Source: Onthophagus taurus
Taxonomy: Eukaryota; Arthropoda; Insecta; Coleoptera; Scarabaeidae
Direction of reading: 5' to 3'
NCBI RefSeq assembly: GCF_036711975.1
Contig: NC_091973.1
Span: forward strand, 6,262,001 to 6,326,000
DNA: 64,000 nt
Position 1 is the first letter of the stretch. Each line of letters starts with the position of its first letter. Positions 44,651 to 58,208 of this stretch are shown here, piece by piece. Below the pieces are notes generated by a model. It did no database searches and was not told the origin of the DNA. It saw only the letters and a list, made by a program, of their open reading frames with translations. The translations under genes were made by a program, and so were the position numbers.

Positions 44651-46185
44651 TCGACTTATCACACCCACAGTATTTTTCATTTTTTATTATTTCTTTAAAT
44701 AGTTCTGTTTTTGAGACCACTATTATGCACACGACTTTTAAAACGTAATCAGAGAAGTTATTTCAAAAAGTTTTAAATTATTTTAACACATATGTATGTG
44801 TATATAGAAGCGTACCAAAACAAATAAATATATTGAACCCAGACAAGAAAAAAAACAGTGAGTATTTGAGATTTGTTGACGACTTAAGTCGGATTAATTT
44901 ATTTTAACGCAGGGCTGTGGTTTTTTTAACTTGTCGGTGAGAAACGAAACCCCACATAATTAAAAAAAAACGTTTTCCCACTTGTATATACATATGTGTA
45001 TGTGTATATATTATTTTTTGTTTTTGGGTTTATTTAATTATTAACCAATTTTACGTTGTGCGCGGGTTCATATTTAAGATATGTCCGTTTATCAAAGACT
45101 AATTATATTTTTTAATGCAAAATTTGTTTCTCAACGGCCTCTAAAAAGTGGCGAAACAAATTTTTGTGTATGTATGTAATTCTTGAAGTATATAAAAAAA
45201 TATAGTTATAAGTTATTTCATAATTATGAGTACTACTATTAGTAATATGAAAATTGTTCTATTATTCGCTGTTGTTTTTTTTTGTAATTACTTAAAAATC
45301 AGTAAATAAACTTGATAAACTAACAATATTTTTAGATTCTTATTAATATAGAGTCCAAAGTTGTTACACTTTCTACAAAGATCATAAGAAATATAGCGAT
45401 TCAGGACAAATAGATCCTTCCAACTTATTATTTATTGAAGTATGCCTATTAAAACGTAGATGGGATGTATTTTTAGTCATTTAAGTTAAATAATGGAATT
45501 TTCCAAGTTCAACTGACGTTAGCTTGACGCTTGAATTCTCTAAAAAAAGATTGAGATAAGAAAAAAATTGTTTTTGTACATTTTTTTATTCGCACTGACC
45601 TAAGATGTTATTTGTAAATAGATTCAAGGTCGTTATGATACAAAGACTTAGCATGATGCAATGGAAATGTGAATTGCAGATCAAAAAGAGATTGTATTAA
45701 TACATTTCTTTGGAGTTGAGAGATAACGGGTTATAAAAAAACATGTTTTGTACAGAAATAGCTTTTATTAGCTTAAAAACCCACAGTAATACATAATAAC
45801 ATAGAAATAGACGCGGATAATAACATTTAAAATGTATAAAATAGTTTATTTTAAGGCACAACAACTTTAGAAAATTTTTCTACACGCTACATTACTTTCA
45901 TTTCCCCATTTTTTATCACACGTTAATGTTAATAAACAAAATAAAGGTTAATAAAGAAAGAAAACAATCCCAAACCATATATAAAAAATAACATCATAAA
46001 ACGTTTAAAACTAAAGTTAAAATTAATAATAAAGTTAATAAAGATATAATCATTAAAACGTCAGCACGTTTAACAAATTATAAATGATATGATTAATTCT
46101 TGTGGAGTCAGCGACCCAAAAAAAAAACTTATTGATAAAATTAATAAAAGCAGATCTTAAAACGCAAAAATGGCTTTAATACAAG
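44651..46185. other. Convergent 3' UTRs of SCAMP and LIPT1
   Basis: SCAMP 3' UTR follows the stop; an AATAAATATA signal is at about 44822. The right part (about 45750-46185) is probably the LIPT1 3' UTR. AT-rich, with TATATA and short ATGTGTATGT runs near 44785 and 44990. No gene is seen. Confidence 0.5.
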
Positions 46186-48455
46186 TTAAAATGACGTCAT
46201 AACTTTTCTAACGCAATCGGAAACAAATTTATCCTCAGTTGAATCATTGGTGGATCCTCTTAAATAATACTCAAGGGAATTAATTGCGTCTTCAGAAAAT
46301 TTCCTGCCTTTTAACGATGTCAAAACTTTCGCCTCCCCGGTAAATCCACTTTTACTCAAACCGGGCGGCACAAACATAGTTACACCTTTAATACGACCAT
46401 TCTCCACCGACATATTTATGGTTAATTCGGAAGAAACTCCAGCGGTGTTTTTCAATATCGCGTTTGGTACGTGAAAAGAACGAGTGATTGTAAAATTTGG
46501 TGTTTTTCCATAGTTCCAATCCCATTTTGAGAGCTCATCACGAATCTCCATTAAACCTAAAAAATGCAATTGACGCATTTTATAACATTGCCAAAAAAAT
46601 AAATGTTTTACGTAAAACCATTATAAAATGTAATAATAACTTTATGCGATAAAATGATAACGAATTTTATTAATACTGAAATGAATAGAGAGGGAAAATG
46701 AAAAAATGAGAAAAAGAAAAAAAGGGTGATGTTGAGACTTGAGAGAGCGAAAATAGTAGGATGAGGACTTTGCCCTGTCACCTTGGAGTGTACTTTGTGA
46801 AATATAAAGCGAGAACTGGTTGCCAGGAGAGACGTTACGTCACCCGCGATAAAAGTACAAAGTACATCCATGAGAATAACAAATGTTTTAAAACCACACA
46901 TGATAATATAATTTCTTTTTACCGGGAAACCATTTCTCAGTGGGGTTAATCATGTTGAATCCTTTTTGTTGGTTTGCCAAATCTTTTCCACCATCTTTAA
47001 GGGTCAATGCTTCCGTTCGTAAAAATTCCCAACCAATTGCTGACAATAAACTTTCCACGTTAATCTTGTAATTTTCATCAGACAAATTCATATACTTCAT
47101 CGTTGTTTTTGGCTGTAAAAATATATATAAAAAAAGTTGTTTACTTTTTGTGCGCCAAAGATAAGATAAGAAATATACAGTGTTTTAATAATAATATTGC
47201 GCGTTATCTTTCGAGTGTTAAGAAACAACATTTTAAGTTAAACCTTAAATTCTACGTTTGAACCCTAACTCAGTTTTAAAATTATTAAATCATCTTGCTG
47301 ATACTTGCATATTTCGGGTTAATTTATGGATGTTGATTCTTTTGTAAAAACAATTTAAAGTTACAACTAGCAACAAGCTTTCAAAAAGTAATAAAACGAC
47401 TTTAACGAGTAACGGTTTTATGATTTAGAAAGAGAAATATTTTTACTCATTTTGAGAAAATCATAAATTGAAATTTTTGTGAATCATTATAAAATAAGTT
47501 ATAGTAAAATTATAAGCTTTCTAATGAAAGAAACCGATTTTGAAAATATCTTTTAGTTTTTGAGATATTAATTTTTACACATAATCTTGGAAAATTATTA
47601 AAAATGTTTTTGACTCCCTTGGTATTGATACAACTTTTAGGTTGGCTTGAAAATTCTTGTAGTTGTTTACATCTTTTTATATCTTATTAATTACATTCTT
47701 TTCTGATGATGTAATTAAATTTTAAAACCGGTGTTGATTCAAAATAACTTTTAATGTTAGTCTCTTTGCATAAAATGTAAAATCCTATTTTTAAAAATTG
47801 GCAATTCAAAATTGTCCGAAAATAGCGTTCCTTACCTCAGTTTTGCAAAGGGCATCAACAAGGTCAGGTTTGTTCACGTTCACAAGTAAGGAACAATGAA
47901 GATAAGAGCTATTATCGCCGATTTTTGACGCAGCATTTGACACCTAAATAATAAATAAAAAAATCTTTTTTTTAACTTTTTTGAAATACTTTTTACCTTA
48001 TAATTTCGTATCATTAAATCGTTGTTGAGAGCTAAATTGGTTTTTAAGGTATATTCCCTAAAAAGAGCTCGACGAAGTATTTCCATGTTATATAAAGAGT
48101 CGTGGTCTTGGGTTGAAGTGAAAAAGGTTGCATTTAAATTGCCGTGATCCTGATAAGAGGCCGTTCCGTTAATAATTCTTCGAGCAAGTTTAACCCCATT
48201 TTCGGCCAAATGTTTATGATTTTTAATGTTAGTTTCAACCCATGGGTTTTGGGTATGTCCTATGACGATGCTTGGATCATTTTTCGTTAATAACATAACG
48301 TGGTGATCTTTAAAATCGAAATTTTGGTACAACCATTGCTCTAAAGCGAGATTGGTGTAGACGTCGTTCGATTGAGATATAAATACTGATTTTTTGATCG
48401 AACGAGACTTTAAAACGGCAGTGATTTTGTTTACTTTAGATCGTGCTAAAGCCAT
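46186..48455 (-). CDS. LIPT1: Lipoyltransferase 1, mitochondrial
   Basis: LIPT1 transfers lipoate to the E2 subunits of 2-oxoacid dehydrogenases in mitochondria. Exons: 48455-47997, 47943-47836, 47112-46923 and 46556-46186, with matching phases, giving 375 residues (human 373). The N-terminus is basic (MALARSKVNKITAVLKSRSIKK), as in a targeting peptide. Family stretches: FISQSNDVYTNLALEQWLY, NDPSIVIGHTQNPWVE, KLARRIINGTASYQDHGN, NDLMIRNYKVSNAASKIGDN with the substrate-binding Lys, WEFLRTEALTL and WDWNYGKTPNFTI. The usual glycine-rich RRxSGGGTVYHD loop reads RRIINGTASYQD here, a notable departure in the lipoyl-binding site. A small gene or uORF lies just upstream on the same strand. Confidence 0.93.
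47113..47835. other. LIPT1 intron 2
   Basis: 723 bases of AT-rich intron between exons 2 and 3 of the minus-strand LIPT1 gene. No repeat or gene was recognised. Confidence 0.5.
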
Positions 48456-48517
48456 TTTCGCGATAAATTTTTCTTTATCACTGTTTTTTAATCAACAAGG
48501 AAAAAGGAATAAGTCTT

Positions 48518-48523
48518 TTTATT
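48518..48523 (-). terminator. Candidate polyadenylation signal of the small transcription unit
   Basis: AATAAA on the minus strand, 102 bases after the stop codon of the 46-residue ORF and 63 bases before the LIPT1 start codon. If used, it would end a ~450 base transcript. Confidence 0.4.
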
Positions 48524-48624
48524 ACTTAAAAAAATGTCTTAACTAAAACAGTCTTAGCACCAAGAAAATTCTCCGTAGCTGTTATGCCTTAAATGTATTT
48601 TTTTGAATTTTTTGGTGGTTTGAT

Positions 48625-48765
48625 TTATTCAGCGTCCGTGTGCGAGGCAGCTAAAGAAATCAAATAATCGTGGACGGTGATGGTTTGATGGAGCCACTTC
48701 CACGTTTGGTGTAGCCCGTTAATACGGCAACGTATACCGACGCAATCTCCACAGCTATTGAGCAT
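48625..48765 (-). CDS. Unrecognised 46-residue protein (small gene or LIPT1 upstream ORF)
   Basis: The first ATG downstream of a canonical TATA/initiator promoter opens a 46-codon frame. The protein has three cysteines near the start (MLNSCGDCVGIRCRINGL), a Trp-Lys-Trp with flanking histidines (HQTWKWLHQTITVHDY) and an acidic end. Base composition is much richer in GC than the surroundings and third positions vary, as in real coding sequence. The frame stays open upstream to a TGA at about 48849, so a non-AUG extension is possible. There is no membrane segment. I do not recognise the family. It could be an independent gene ending at 48518, or an uORF in the LIPT1 leader, since the LIPT1 ATG follows 170 bases after its stop. 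Confidence 0.55.
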   Translation of the reverse strand: MLNSCGDCVGIRCRINGLHQTWKWLHQTITVHDYLISLAASHTDAE

Positions 48766-48954
48766 CACTCCCTTAGGTTCCAGGGTGCGGTTAAAAAACT
48801 TATTCGAGTCCCGTAAAAACGAAAAACGAACTCACAGGAAAACACAAACGTGCTAAAACTATTCAAATTCAGGTCGATTCGAACACGATTAAACCTTTTC
48901 TTCTTCCCTCGCGCGAACTTTCGTTTCGTTTCGTTTCGACAGCAAACACACGAC

Positions 48955-48988
48955 TGATACTAAATTTAGATATTTACCGTTTTATATA
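48955..48988 (-). promoter_or_regulatory. TATA plus initiator core promoter
   Basis: On the minus strand TATATAAA (48988-48981) is followed by an arthropod initiator TCAGTC (48956-48951 region). The T of TATAAA lies at -31 relative to the initiator A at 48955, the canonical spacing. It faces the 46-residue ORF and LIPT1. TATA-plus-Inr promoters usually serve regulated rather than housekeeping genes. Confidence 0.75.
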
Positions 48989-49470
48989 AGCGTTAACGCG
49001 ACAAAAATAAAACCCAACTGGCGCTTATCGTTTGATAAAAACTTGCAAACTCCACCTACTTGAATCTCTCACTTCTATCTGGTTACTGTTTATTTATTCA
49101 ATGTCTAGATGACAGATCACAAATATTTCTAAACATACACAACCAGTTTATCCCACTTCCTTTCACAACATTACATTTCTTTCATCTTTTTTAATTATAT
49201 TCGGTTTCACTTAAACTAATTTTATTACAATTCCTTATATTTATTTTATTTATCATTTAATTCAACCATTTTTGTATTTCTTATTTTTAAATAAATTCCT
49301 CAAATAATCATTAATCTTTGGTGTTTACTAAGTTTCCTATCTTTTTAGGGGTCACCTTCTATAAGTTTTAATGGCACATAGATGGCGTTTTCGCATTATC
49401 TTGGATTATTCTAGAGCCCTGTAATTCCTGATTCATCCCTACAACATATCTGGGTATATTGTTATGCTGG
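48989..49470. other. Spacer left of the repeat/LINE region
   Basis: AT-rich spacer. An AGATGGCG motif is at about 49379. No gene is seen. Confidence 0.4.
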
Positions 49471-49622
49471 AGAACCTATTATATAGAATACGAATTTAGG
49501 TATTCTATATAATGCCTAGGTAATGTATAAAATACCTGAGGTGTCTAGGCAATGTATGAAATATTAAGTAATGTATATGTTACCGTTAATCTGTATAATT
49601 CAGGTACTCTATACAATGCCTA

Positions 49623-49627
<5 letters not shown>
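49471..49627. repeat. Left part of an interrupted AT-rich repeat (TGTATAAAATACC family)
   Basis: Motifs GCCTAGGTAATGTATAAAAT, ACCTGAGGTGTCTAGGCAAT and GTATGAAATATTA recur at 52035-52095 on the other side of a LINE. The repeat was probably one unit split by that LINE. Confidence 0.7.
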
Positions 49628-49665
<38 letters not shown>

Positions 49666-52035
49666 TATTGAGCTTCTCAATTACAATAATAAAGTAACAG
49701 TATCCTTTTTACATTAAATGTGCTCAATATGAGTTAGTTCGGTTTTCACCGTTCTTCCACCAACCCATCACAACAAAAAGAAAAACAAAACAATAATTTC
49801 AATTACATAACCGTAATCGCAGTGTAACATACATACATTATAACCTAATAAATCTAATCAAAATTCATGCCACAAAAGACCGATGCAAACAAAAGAAAAA
49901 TATCTATCACTTCTACAGATTCCCGTGTCCCTGTATTAACACTGTCCTTAATCGCCTCTTAAACTGCCACTCAGACGAGCACACTCCAACATTCATAATA
50001 ATATCATTAAATATTTTACTAATTTGATAGGTAAAACTGTTTTTAAAGAATTCAGTTCTGTGTATGGGCGGCGTTATCGTACCTTTAAATCTTATATTAA
50101 GATTGTGCACGTCCGAGCGGAAGGTAATTTTATCATACAAATATGCAGGTTTTTCCTTGGTGACCACATTGCGAAACAACAATGCCGAGTGCGCCAAACG
50201 TCGCGACTGCATGTCCATCCAGCCGATTTCCGACAGTTTACTACTTACATGGTCCCTTCGCCTCAACCCAAACAATAGTCTTATACAGGAGTTTTGAACT
50301 TTTTGAATTTTAGACTTAAGTACACAAGACAAAAACGGATAATACAAGCAATCCGCAAAATTAAAGTGCGATAACACTATGCTGTCACATAGTAATCATT
50401 TAGTTGTTCTATTGATGTACTCTCGGTTGCAATAAATCAATTTCAATGACGCATATGCTTTTTGTACACACTTATTAACATGAGAATCAAACTTTAAATT
50501 TTCGTCAAGAATTACTCCTAAGTCTTTTGCTGATTTACTAATTATCAATTGCTTATTGTTGATTTCAATTTTGATTTTATTTTGTAATTTAATTTTAAGT
50601 TTTTTGGGACCAAACAGCATTAATTCTGTTTTTTGCGGGTTGATGCAAAGGCCATGCCCCTCGGAAACCCGTACCAACCTTTGCAAGTCTTCATTAATTT
50701 TTGCGCACGCCACATCCACCTCCGATTCAGTGAATGAATGGTATATTTGTGTGTCGTCAGCATACCAATGGGCATTGCAATACCGAATTCTGTCTTTGAA
50801 TTGACTTGTGTATATACTATACAACAAGGGAGATATCATTGATCCCTGAGGACATCCGACCTTGACAAATGACGGCTTAGAAAAGCGACCATTTATCACG
50901 ACTTGCGGTTCCCTATCAGACAAGTAACTCATCAAAAGACCTACTGCTGGTTGACTCACCCCAATGTGATACAAAATTGAGGACAACATTTTATGATTCA
51001 TCCTGTCAAATGCCTTCGAATAATCAAGCAAACACAGTACCGTTACTTTACCGCTATCGGACGCCCTCAGTACATCATCCACTATGTTAAGCAAAGCCGT
51101 AGCGCAGCCATAACCCGCTCTGAAACCAGATTGCGTTTCTGGCAACAATTTATGTTTGTAAACAAACGCCTGGAGCTGCTCACACATAATTTTCTCCAGC
51201 ACCTTAGACAACACTGGTAGAATGCTAATCGGACGTAAATCAGCAAATGAATCTGGCTTTTTTTTCTTTGGTAATGGAACTATTTTCGCCTTTTTCCAAG
51301 CGTCTGGAAATCGACCGTCCGACAAACAGCAATTAACTATGTCTTTAATTTGAGGTATTATGTGAGGGCAACAGTAATTAATCATTTTAATATTAAGTCC
51401 ATCTAATCCTGTGGCGTTACTTCTTATGCAGTTAATAACTTCCTCTATTTTAGCATCACTGACACATTCAAAATTGAAAATATGTTTTGTGACTACATTA
51501 TTCATATAAGATTGATATAGATCTCTGTCAATGTCCCCATTCAGAGGAGCTATATTTGTGAAATAGTTGTTAATTTGATCCGAGTCAGCAAGCTGCTCAG
51601 GAATACTGTCAGTTGTGCGAGTTAAAATTCTACATTTCCGCAACGCTATCCATGGATTAGTTTCCAATCCCATACAATGACTAACATACGCCTTTCTTTC
51701 TCTGTTTATGGCTCCCTTTACATAATTCCTCATATCTTTATAGTATTGCCAAGACTCATTTGTTTTTAATGATCTATATTTTTTATATGCTTTATCTCGA
51801 AGCTTTTGCATTCTTCTTATTGTGTCCGTTATCCAAGGTGTCGGGGCAGCACATTCTTTAAAAGTTCGCACTGGAGCGTGAGCATCAAAAAGTGTCAGAA
51901 TATTTTCCGTCAAAAACCTTACTTTATTGTTAACATTAATCATATCAAAACTTAGAAAAAAAGGAATAGCATACAGATCCTGCAAAAACCTTTGATAAAC
52001 AAAATTTGAAAAGATACGCCTAGTGACAGAAGCAG
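49628..52035 (-). mobile_element. 5'-truncated LINE with reverse transcriptase (YADDTQIY type)
   Basis: The minus strand encodes a linker (DAHAPVRTFKECAAPTPWIT) and a full RT: GLDGLNIKMIN, KKAKIVPLPKKKKPDSFADL, LRPISILPVLSKVLEKIM, TQSGFRAGYGCATALL, LLDYSKAFDRMNH, GCPQGSMISPLLYSIY, HWYADDTQIYHSF and AKDLGVILDENL. One in-frame TGA (50398-50396) separates this 550-codon frame from a 154-codon C-terminal part without RNase H (SCIRLLFGLRRRDHVSSKL). The 3' end is a (TTA)n run, seen as (TAA)n at 49628-49661. The endonuclease is missing. The YADDTQIY box fits CR1/L2-like clades of the Jockey superfamily better than R1 or LOA. It looks fairly young: one break in ~2.1 kb. Confidence 0.9.
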
Positions 52036-53050
52036 GCAATGTAGGCAATGTATAAAATACCTGGGGTGTCTAAGCAATGTATGAAATATTATGAAGATTA
52101 TTATTATTTAGATACTTTACCTAGGTAATGTATACAATTCTTAGGGATTACATAGAGTACCTGTTGGTCGACCGGCAATGTGTAAAATAAATAGATTTCG
52201 GTCTGTATTTATCAATTTTTACTAATAATAAACTTTTTTATTACATTATTAAATTACATTAAACTTAAAATTTTTCTGGGTTAACTAACATAATGTCATT
52301 TGCTTATAAGTAATCAAGTAATAAGTATTAAAAACTTAAGAAACAAAATAATTTTGTAAAAACAAGACGTAGATCCACTGACCTCTCAGAATTGAATAAG
52401 TAAAAAAATTCTCTCTCTTCTGTTCTTGCCTTTTACACATTGCCGGCTTCGCATTCGGTATTTTATGGAATACTTAGGCAAAGTATAAAATTAATAATAT
52501 TTCATATATTACCTAAACGTTTTAGGTATTCTATAAATTAATAATTATTTGGTTATTTCTTTCCATCTCAATTTTAATGTAAATGCAATAAAACTGTGTG
52601 TATTTATAGATGGATTTTTTTATATTCAGCTCTACCGGTTTCGATCAATACATTTAATCATCTTCAGGAGCAACGTCAGTAAAAATATTTTTAAAAAACA
52701 TAATAGTTAGTTAATTAAGCTGGTATTTTCTCAATCTTGATTATTTAACTCTTCTCTTCCTTGTTACCCAGTTATTAAATCAGAAATATCCAATAAGGCT
52801 ACCATGCAACAATATGCACCATGTGTTTCTTTTATTTTTGAAATAAAAGAATGATTAAATGTATTGATCGAAACTGGTAGATCTGAAAATAAAAAAATCC
52901 ATCTATAAATACACACAGTTTTATTACATTTACATTCTATAAATTGCCTAGGTATTGTATAGAATACCAAATTATACAGATTGCCGGTAACATATACAAT
53001 TCTTAGGGATTATATAGAGTACCTGTTGGTCGACCGGCAATGTGTAAAAT
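52036..53050. repeat. Right part of the AT-rich repeat, with a second copy of its end
   Basis: TACAATTCTTAGGGATTA-type sequence followed by GAGTACCTGTTGGTCGACCG and GCAATGTGTAAAATAAATA occurs at 52130-52190 and again at 52990-53055. An inverted TTTTACACATTGCCGG lies at 52431. A 360 bp MITE sits inside (52576-52935). Family unknown. Confidence 0.7.
52576..52935. mobile_element. ~360 bp MITE with ~88 bp terminal inverted repeats
   Basis: The left arm AATGTAAATGCAATAAAACT ... ACCGGTTTCGATCAATACAT (52576-52663) is nearly the exact inverse of the right arm (52850-52935). Two small differences are ACCGGTTTC against ACCAGTTTC, and ATTCAGCTC against TTTCAGATC. No coding capacity. The ACCGGTTTCGA ... 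CATCTTCAG motif recurs at 2598-2632. Confidence 0.9.
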
Positions 53051-56424: not shown

Positions 56425-58208
56425 GTATGTATGTATGTATGGATTGGGGAGTGCATGCAAAACCGCACGCCACACTTAGGCCCCATTGGGCCCCTTGTGC
56501 ATCCTCCCATTACACACTCTGGTCACATCAACCAGCCTAAGGATTTACCAAAGGCTAGGACGGCTCCTAGAGGTGCATTCCTGATGTCATCTGTGGTCGG
56601 CCATTCCTCCCCGAAGGTCCTCATTCTGAGGTCGGTCAGAGAGGGGCAGTCACACAAGATGTGTTTAACCGTCTCGTCATCCTGTTCACAGGCTCGACAG
56701 AGAGGGGAGTCAGCAAGCTTCATGTTTTGAAGGTGCTTGTTTACCTTACAGTGTCCCGTGAGGAGACCTGTGGCAGTGCGAAGGGCACTTTTACCGAGCC
56801 CTACGAAGAACTGGGCTGTTGCGGCTGAAGGATATTTTAACAATTCCTTGGCGAGATGACAGCCCGGGGTACGGTCCCACCCGTTTAAAAATTTTTTGTG
56901 GGTAATGCGCTTGATTAACTCGATGTGAGTAGCTAAAGAGGGGGTAATTATCGGCTCGGGTGCACAGGGCGCTCTACCGGCAGCACGTTTGGCAAGCCTG
57001 TCAGCGTGGTTGTTACCCTTGGAGCCGGAATGCCCCTTAACCCACTGGATTCTGACACGATTGTATTTCGCGGCCTCCTCCAGTGCTTTGTGACAATCCA
57101 TTACTACTGCAGACGTTATAATAACTCTGCTTAGAGCTAAAAGAGATTGTTTACTGTCTGTGAAAATAGTGAAGCACTTACCCCGCTTGTTGGATTCAAC
57201 AATGCAGTCGGCAGCAAGTTTAATAGCAGTTAGTTCCGCTTGTATGACGGTGGTGCTAGACCCTAAAGGTTCCGAGAGGCGAATCGGGGGATCGTGAGAG
57301 AATACCCCGGCGCCTGCACCATTTCGTCCTTTTGAACCATCAGTGTAGATCTTAAAAGTTCTTCGTTCATCTACTACTGTGGGACTGACGTGGGTGAGGT
57401 ACTTCTTTGAGAAAACATATTTTGCTGGTCTGTGATCAGTCTTACACTCGAGTAGGGGTGTGTCTAACACTGCTTCCCTCCAGAGTGTTGAACTGCTGCC
57501 AGCGTCCTCATCCTTCATAGTTCCTACTGATTGTAGTCTTTTCATGGTTACCAACGCCACTTCCTGAATATGTAGGTTGAGTGGTGGTAAATTTAACATG
57601 ATTTCCATGGCCGCGGTGGGGGTTGATCGCAGCGCACCTGTAACATACAGACACGCGAGTCTCTGTATTCTATTAAGTGCAGTGGTGGCGGTAGACCTAG
57701 AAGTTCTAGTCCACCATACCACCGCACCGTACGTTAGCATTGGTCGAACAACGGCGGTGTAAATCCACAGGGCTATCTTGGGAGACAGACCCCAAGTCCT
57801 CCCGACAGCCCTCCGGCACTGGCCGAAGGCGACACAAGCTTTATTAACTCTATTGTCTAGGTGGGATTTCCACGTTAGTTTACTGTCTATTATTAAGCCC
57901 AAGTACTTAACTTCAGTAGACAGTTTAAGTGGAGTTTTAGCGAGCGTTGGCAATCTAGGATTGCCAATGTTGCGCTTGCGTGTAAAAAGAACCATTTCTG
58001 TCTTCTTGGGATTGACGGAAAGGCATTGTTTATTACACCAGTTCTCAATTAGATTGAGTGCTTCCTGCATCCTATCGAGGAGTACGTTAGCGTACTTGCC
58101 TCTAATGAGGATTGTCAGGTCATCTGCGTAGCCAACGGTTTTAAAACCGGCTAGTTTTAGGCGTTTCATGAGGCTATCGAGGGTGAGATTCCACAAAAGT
58201 GGAGAAAG
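56425..58208 (-). mobile_element. 5'-truncated LINE with RT palm and RNase H, open reading frame intact
   Basis: The minus strand has one unbroken frame from the truncation point to 56523. It holds RT motif C (KTVGYADDLTILIRG), LSVNPKKTEMVLFTRK, EVKYLGLIIDSKLTWKSHL, RNase H (FKIYTDGSKGRNGAGAGVF, VIQAELTAIKLAAD, IFTDSKQSLLALS, VRIQWVKGHSGSKGNNHADR) and a CxxC-H-C end (CRACEQDDETVKHILCDC). The 3' UTR ends in (CATA)n, seen as GTATGTATGTATG at 56425-56437. The 12-bp target-site duplication TTTCTGGTACTT lies at 56413-56424 and 58209-58220. The intact frame suggests recent insertion. It belongs to the same broad clade as the 55.2 kb LINE, but to a different family. Confidence 0.93.

Follow-up and report, generated by a model that had tools for sequence, protein, structure and literature searches.

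The 500 nt preceding a lipoyltransferase gene (LIPT1) of Onthophagus taurus most probably form the promoter and 5′ leader of that gene, carrying one upstream open reading frame (uORF) that would act as a leaky brake on it; the region would then hold one transcription unit, not two. We analyzed this region within a stretch of 64,000 nucleotides, hereafter the window (Table 1). The arrangement outlined in the first-pass annotation was recovered throughout: on the minus strand, TATAAA lies exactly 31 bases ahead of an initiator A (48986 versus 48955), the first ATG follows about 190 bases past that A (48765), a 46-codon frame runs from 48765 to 48625 upstream of LIPT1 and on its strand, and AATAAA comes about 100 bases beyond the stop (102 nt, at 48523). 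All these motifs fit into less than 500 bases directly upstream of the LIPT1 ATG at 48455, and the frame does coincide with a GC-rich patch (48% GC with its stop codon versus 33% for the window).

Table 1. Coordinates, within the window, of the LIPT1 gene and of the features upstream of it.
Feature	Position	Strand	Remarks
TATA box, TATAAA	48981..48986	minus	in TTATATAAAA; its first T marks −31 relative to the initiator A
Initiator, TCAGTC	48952..48957	minus	putative transcription start, A at 48955
Putative unspliced 5′ leader of LIPT1	48456..48955	minus	500 nt, single ATG
uORF of 46 codons	48625..48765	minus	stop codon included; 169 nt ahead of the LIPT1 ATG
AATAAA	48518..48523	minus	102 nt past the uORF stop
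Candidate 5′-UTR intron	48651..48835	minus	185 nt; CCT/GTGAGT ... TTTGATTTCTTTAG/C; PWM scores: donor 7.8, acceptor 6.4
LIPT1-like lipoyltransferase gene	46186..48455	minus	375 aa, four exons; from homology and GT-AG
LIPT1 exons	48455-47997, 47943-47836, 47112-46923, 46556-46186	minus	limits from homology and GT-AG

Counting both strands, the window holds a single strict pair of TATAAA and TCAGTY with the spacing of a promoter, compared with 0.48 such pairs expected under a Markov model. Looser TATA and initiator motifs give three matches in the window, two of which are the same 48986/48955 site, versus 3.55 expected. The strict count by itself is not remarkable and, because the looser motifs occur at expectation, weight can be given only to the strict pair and to its location just before a gene. 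Since no more than about 500 nt separate this sole strict match from a gene start, a chance origin is unlikely, and the TATA-initiator pair upstream of LIPT1 is probably genuine. As a separate observation, tandem ACGAA units are found just 3′ of the putative start, at 48919-48938 on the minus strand; beginning at +18, they lie where, going by its consensus, the motif ten element would presumably be located. PMC8011201 reports that in locust and fly TATA signals accompany sharp promoters and are absent from the broad promoters of genes expressed ubiquitously. The earlier remark that a TATA-initiator promoter is unusual for a lipoylation enzyme is in line, by analogy, with this general trend, and the LIPT1 promoter described here would therefore be atypical if LIPT1 is a housekeeping gene. 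With its TATA box at −31 and its TCAGTC initiator, it resembles the focused TATA-initiator core promoters of insects described in PMC8011201, with the difference that the start is here a predicted one.

The gene presumably served by this promoter encodes a protein with a match to the Pfam family LplA-B_cat (1.4e-30). When the first exon of the gene is read slightly past its end into the first intron, the closest solved structures are those of lipoyltransferase 1 (2e5a, 8.9e-25). An AATAAA occurs 336 bases beyond the LIPT1 stop, at 45850, and another at 45769. The frame is complete from the ATG at 48455 and opens with MALARSKVNKITAVLKSRSIKK, a basic N-terminus of the kind expected for a mitochondrial presequence, so that an upstream coding exon is unneeded. 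We searched the O. taurus genome itself (290.8 Mb in 33 contigs; the nucleotide search skips very common words) and found no second copy of LIPT1, which matched its own place alone at E ≤ 1. A Pfam profile search of the same genome returned two places, the LIPT1 locus and C10. The C10 gene was rejected as a working second LIPT1: it reads TNRGGLITFHGPGQ and looks LIPT2/LipB-like, judged by the LipB signature. As LIPT1 is the sole such gene found and the other LplA/B-type gene is LIPT2-like, the promoter at 48986 would be needed by LIPT1 itself.

The leader is poor in ATG triplets. Within the 500 nt leading to LIPT1, the uORF start is the sole ATG, versus 5.5 expected from dinucleotide shuffles (P = 0.009; P = 0.019 in a Markov model), and 5 of 1,270 overlapping 500-nt tiles, taken on both strands, have as few. 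Such depletion is expected of a 5′ UTR that is scanned toward LIPT1 or under selection against upstream AUGs. No ORF of at least 80 aa lies between the TATA-initiator promoter and LIPT1. As for base composition, 16 places in the window, counting the uORF patch, reach 49.3% GC over 138 nt, and at 12 of them there is an overlapping ORF of 80 aa or longer, in several cases within a mobile element. CpG dinucleotides number 28 in 360 nt of the leader, a count attained in 24 of 3,182 comparison windows. Many CpG could suit a promoter and first exon, which would account for the GC content of the leader without coding; this argument is weak, however, because the observed/expected ratio of 1.66 is unexceptional (543 of the 3,182 windows are equally high).

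The stretch from 48500 to 48990 matched itself alone in the genome at E ≤ 0.001. A solo LTR, or a promoter belonging to another mobile element or repeat, was accordingly ruled out: the stretch is single-copy and the upstream repeat matches end at about 49477. Between 40000 and 60000, no known RNA element reached its Rfam gathering score. Taken as a whole, the leader has a somewhat better predicted fold than its shuffles (z = −2.31; equalled by 1 of 100). A hairpin at 48619-48664 on the minus strand, which covers both the stop of the uORF and the acceptor of the candidate intron in Table 1, stands out when considered in isolation (z = −4.19; equalled by 2 of 200); it is a 15-nt inverted repeat with 13 of 15 positions complementary, or 14 with a G-U pair. 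We do not count it as significant, an equally good 15-nt stem being present in 28% of 150 simulations when the whole leader is searched.

The uORF is an AUG frame located 5′ of the LIPT1 start, on the same strand and closed before 48455, that would encode the 46-aa peptide MLNSCGDCVGIRCRINGLHQTWKWLHQTITVHDYLISLAASHTDAE. Its start context, GGGAGTG/ATGC, with G at −3 and C at +4, is middling, while that of LIPT1, AAA AUG G, is strong. The length of the ORF is not unusual for the local composition (P = 0.21; P = 0.28 for the 68 codons from stop to stop). Pfam holds no family for the peptide or for its 68-codon stop-to-stop version, the PDB no credible relative (best E = 1.6), and the O. taurus genome no paralogue, the peptide matching itself alone at E ≤ 10; in these three collections, a recognizable homologue or paralogue by which an independent gene could be told was thus absent. 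Its cysteines, at positions 5, 8 and 13, form no CX9C pair. Codon use was scored with reference to 23 kinase exons (5,952 codons), 30 kinase loci having been taken from 131 matches and 7 with internal stops excluded beforehand. The uORF scores 0.075 bits per codon in frame, versus −0.076 and −0.054 in the other forward frames; one reverse frame scores similarly (0.061 bits per codon). This score ranks fifth among 73 window ORFs of 38-56 codons, a set that numbered 90 before the removal of ORFs overlapping ten listed gene or element ORFs. Of the off-frame CDS pieces, 4.3% attain this value; of the 223 true coding pieces, 43 fall below it. When synonymous choice alone is considered, the score falls to 0.006; this value is equalled or exceeded by 139 of 446 off-frame pieces, whereas 38 of 223 real CDS pieces stay under it. 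Codon use is therefore weakly coding-like overall, synonymous sites being uninformative, and this signal, suggestive at most, leaves room for a real peptide.

The first-pass annotation had proposed two readings, a uORF in the LIPT1 leader and a new regulated small-protein gene. The former is strengthened by the well-formed promoter, the ATG-depleted leader, the lack of any ORF of at least 80 aa in between and the completeness of LIPT1. The latter has lost ground to the missing relatives, the ordinary length of the frame, the weak coding signal and an uninformative AATAAA, and an independent gene terminating at 48523, ahead of LIPT1, now appears very improbable. Such a gene would explain why a full set of motifs is packed into less than 500 bases, and a pyrimidine-rich stretch, perhaps a chance one, does follow the AATAAA at 48523. 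Yet AATAAA occurs within 130 nt of 20% of sampled minus-strand positions; being expected this close at one place in five, it is uninformative about a separate gene, and the hexamer at 48523 probably does not serve as a poly(A) signal. A second AATAAA, absent from the first-pass annotation, overlaps the uORF stop codon at 48629. Furthermore, LIPT1 would then have to be driven by a different promoter within the 45-70 bases left, and strict and loose TATA-initiator motifs are both absent from these. A bicistronic mRNA, in which the LIPT1 transcript would also yield a functional, conserved 46-residue protein in the manner of Drosophila mitochondrial uORF-mORF pairs, seems to us improbable as well. 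It would agree with the high GC and weakly coding-like codon use of a frame whose start is the single ATG in the leader, and the fly genes with conserved-peptide uORFs, of 15 to 179 aa, are enriched for mitochondrial import according to PMC2276209. Against it stand the absence of a Pfam family, of a credible PDB match and of a second genomic copy, a length as expected by chance, and a synonymous codon choice that does not discriminate.

The main rival to a uORF acting on LIPT1, which we regard as possible although rather unlikely, is a leader with a 5′-UTR intron from 48835 to 48651, which would render the uORF start intronic and leave a mature 315-nt leader devoid of upstream ATG. Between 49000 and 46100, its donor scores second best and its acceptor sixth best with a splice-site PWM. 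The donor exceeds two of the three LIPT1 donors and the acceptor comes near the homology-based LIPT1 acceptors (6.7, 6.7 and 8.1), while the spliced leader has 0 ATGs versus 3.3 expected (P = 0.04). However, the PWM was built on assumed frequencies, 12% of simulated leaders contain a donor-acceptor pair of this quality, and some higher-scoring acceptors fall within the exons or introns of LIPT1, which makes the acceptor score alone unspecific. The donor also carries a T at −1, and the candidate has 45% GC compared to 11, 24 and 31% in the three LIPT1 introns. ATG depletion and GC content together favor a uORF that is exonic in the LIPT1 mRNA. Points that nevertheless speak against the reading as a leader with a uORF include the 46 codons of the frame, which exceed the typical fly length, its in-frame codon score, and this plausible intron, which could take out its start.

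If LIPT1 is indeed preceded by one leader with one uORF, RNA polymerase II would begin at the TATA-spaced initiator, with A at 48955, and transcribe the leader into LIPT1, ending past the AATAAA at 45850 or 45769. Scanning ribosomes would first meet the uORF AUG, and because its context is middling only some of them would initiate there. Those that translate the 46-codon frame would mostly be lost to LIPT1, whose output would be lowered, while the others would bypass the uORF, or reinitiate across the 169-nt spacer, and reach the strong-context LIPT1 AUG. The uORF peptide itself would need no function. If the uORF is real, LIPT1 of O. taurus joins the mitochondrial genes whose output upstream translation may set; if it is not, the locus exemplifies how, in AT-rich DNA, a promoter can combine with a chance ORF and a chance AATAAA to mimic a compact gene.

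No earlier report of a uORF in LIPT1, lipoyltransferase or CG8446, the last being the fly LIPT1, was found in a literature collection from which most subscription papers are missing, and papers there on lipoyltransferase 1 in insects, judged by title and opening of the abstract, do not address it. The main text of PMC2276209, for its part, has no occurrence of 'CG8446', 'lipoyl' or 'lipoate'. In Drosophila, uORFs are common, with 37,619 candidates of a median of 39 nt in PMC6070289. The frame described here shares with the canonical AUG uORFs of insects, as presented in PMC6070289 and PMC2276209, a short AUG frame on the same strand that closes before the main start; at 46 codons it is longer than the median of the D. 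melanogaster uORFs, and its transcription and translation are predicted ones. PMC2276209 lists 44 conserved-peptide uORFs in D. melanogaster, 15 to 179 aa in length, and reports the enrichment for mitochondrial import of the genes that carry them. In Drosophila, some of the conserved-peptide uORFs and dicistronic transcripts, such as that of the Tim9b uORF (PMC2276209), likewise place a short frame before the gene of a mitochondrial protein. The length of our uORF is within their range; it differs from them in having no CX9C pair, and conservation is their defining property, whereas here one genome is considered. Plant-protoplast work cited in PMC2276209 (2008) indicates that reinitiation drops sharply past 34 codons.

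Exon 1 of LIPT1 departs from its relatives at 48147-48182 on the minus strand, where it reads RRIINGTASYQD versus RRRSGGGTVYHD in 2e5a and RRSSGGGAVFHD in lipoate-protein ligase A (1x2g). The usual glycine-rich lipoate-binding loop is changed at this place, according to these alignments. LIPT1 also reads KVSNAASK versus KISGTASK in 2e5a, with retention of the catalytic lysine. The rest of the O. taurus genome yielded no canonical LIPT1, and this enzyme may have diverged or be altered. This altered loop looks more surprising than the finding in the leader. That the LIPT1 mRNA would yield a lineage-specific, Cys/Trp/His-containing peptide of 46 residues, expressed from a regulated TATA-initiator promoter and co-controlled with this loop-altered and sole detected LIPT1, strikes us as quite improbable.

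Mobile elements occupy the DNA farther upstream. A LINE-like element on the minus strand (49647-52037), with a reverse-transcriptase ORF at 50396-51943 and a TTA-repeat tail, is 90-97% identical to six other copies of more than 1.6 kb. It appears to be inserted in a short many-copy repeat, matches to which are found on both of its sides, at 52037-52400 (79-95% identity) and 49569-49628 (85-98%). The ORF of a second non-LTR element, at 56523-58169 on the minus strand, contains RNase H and zf-RVT domains according to Pfam.
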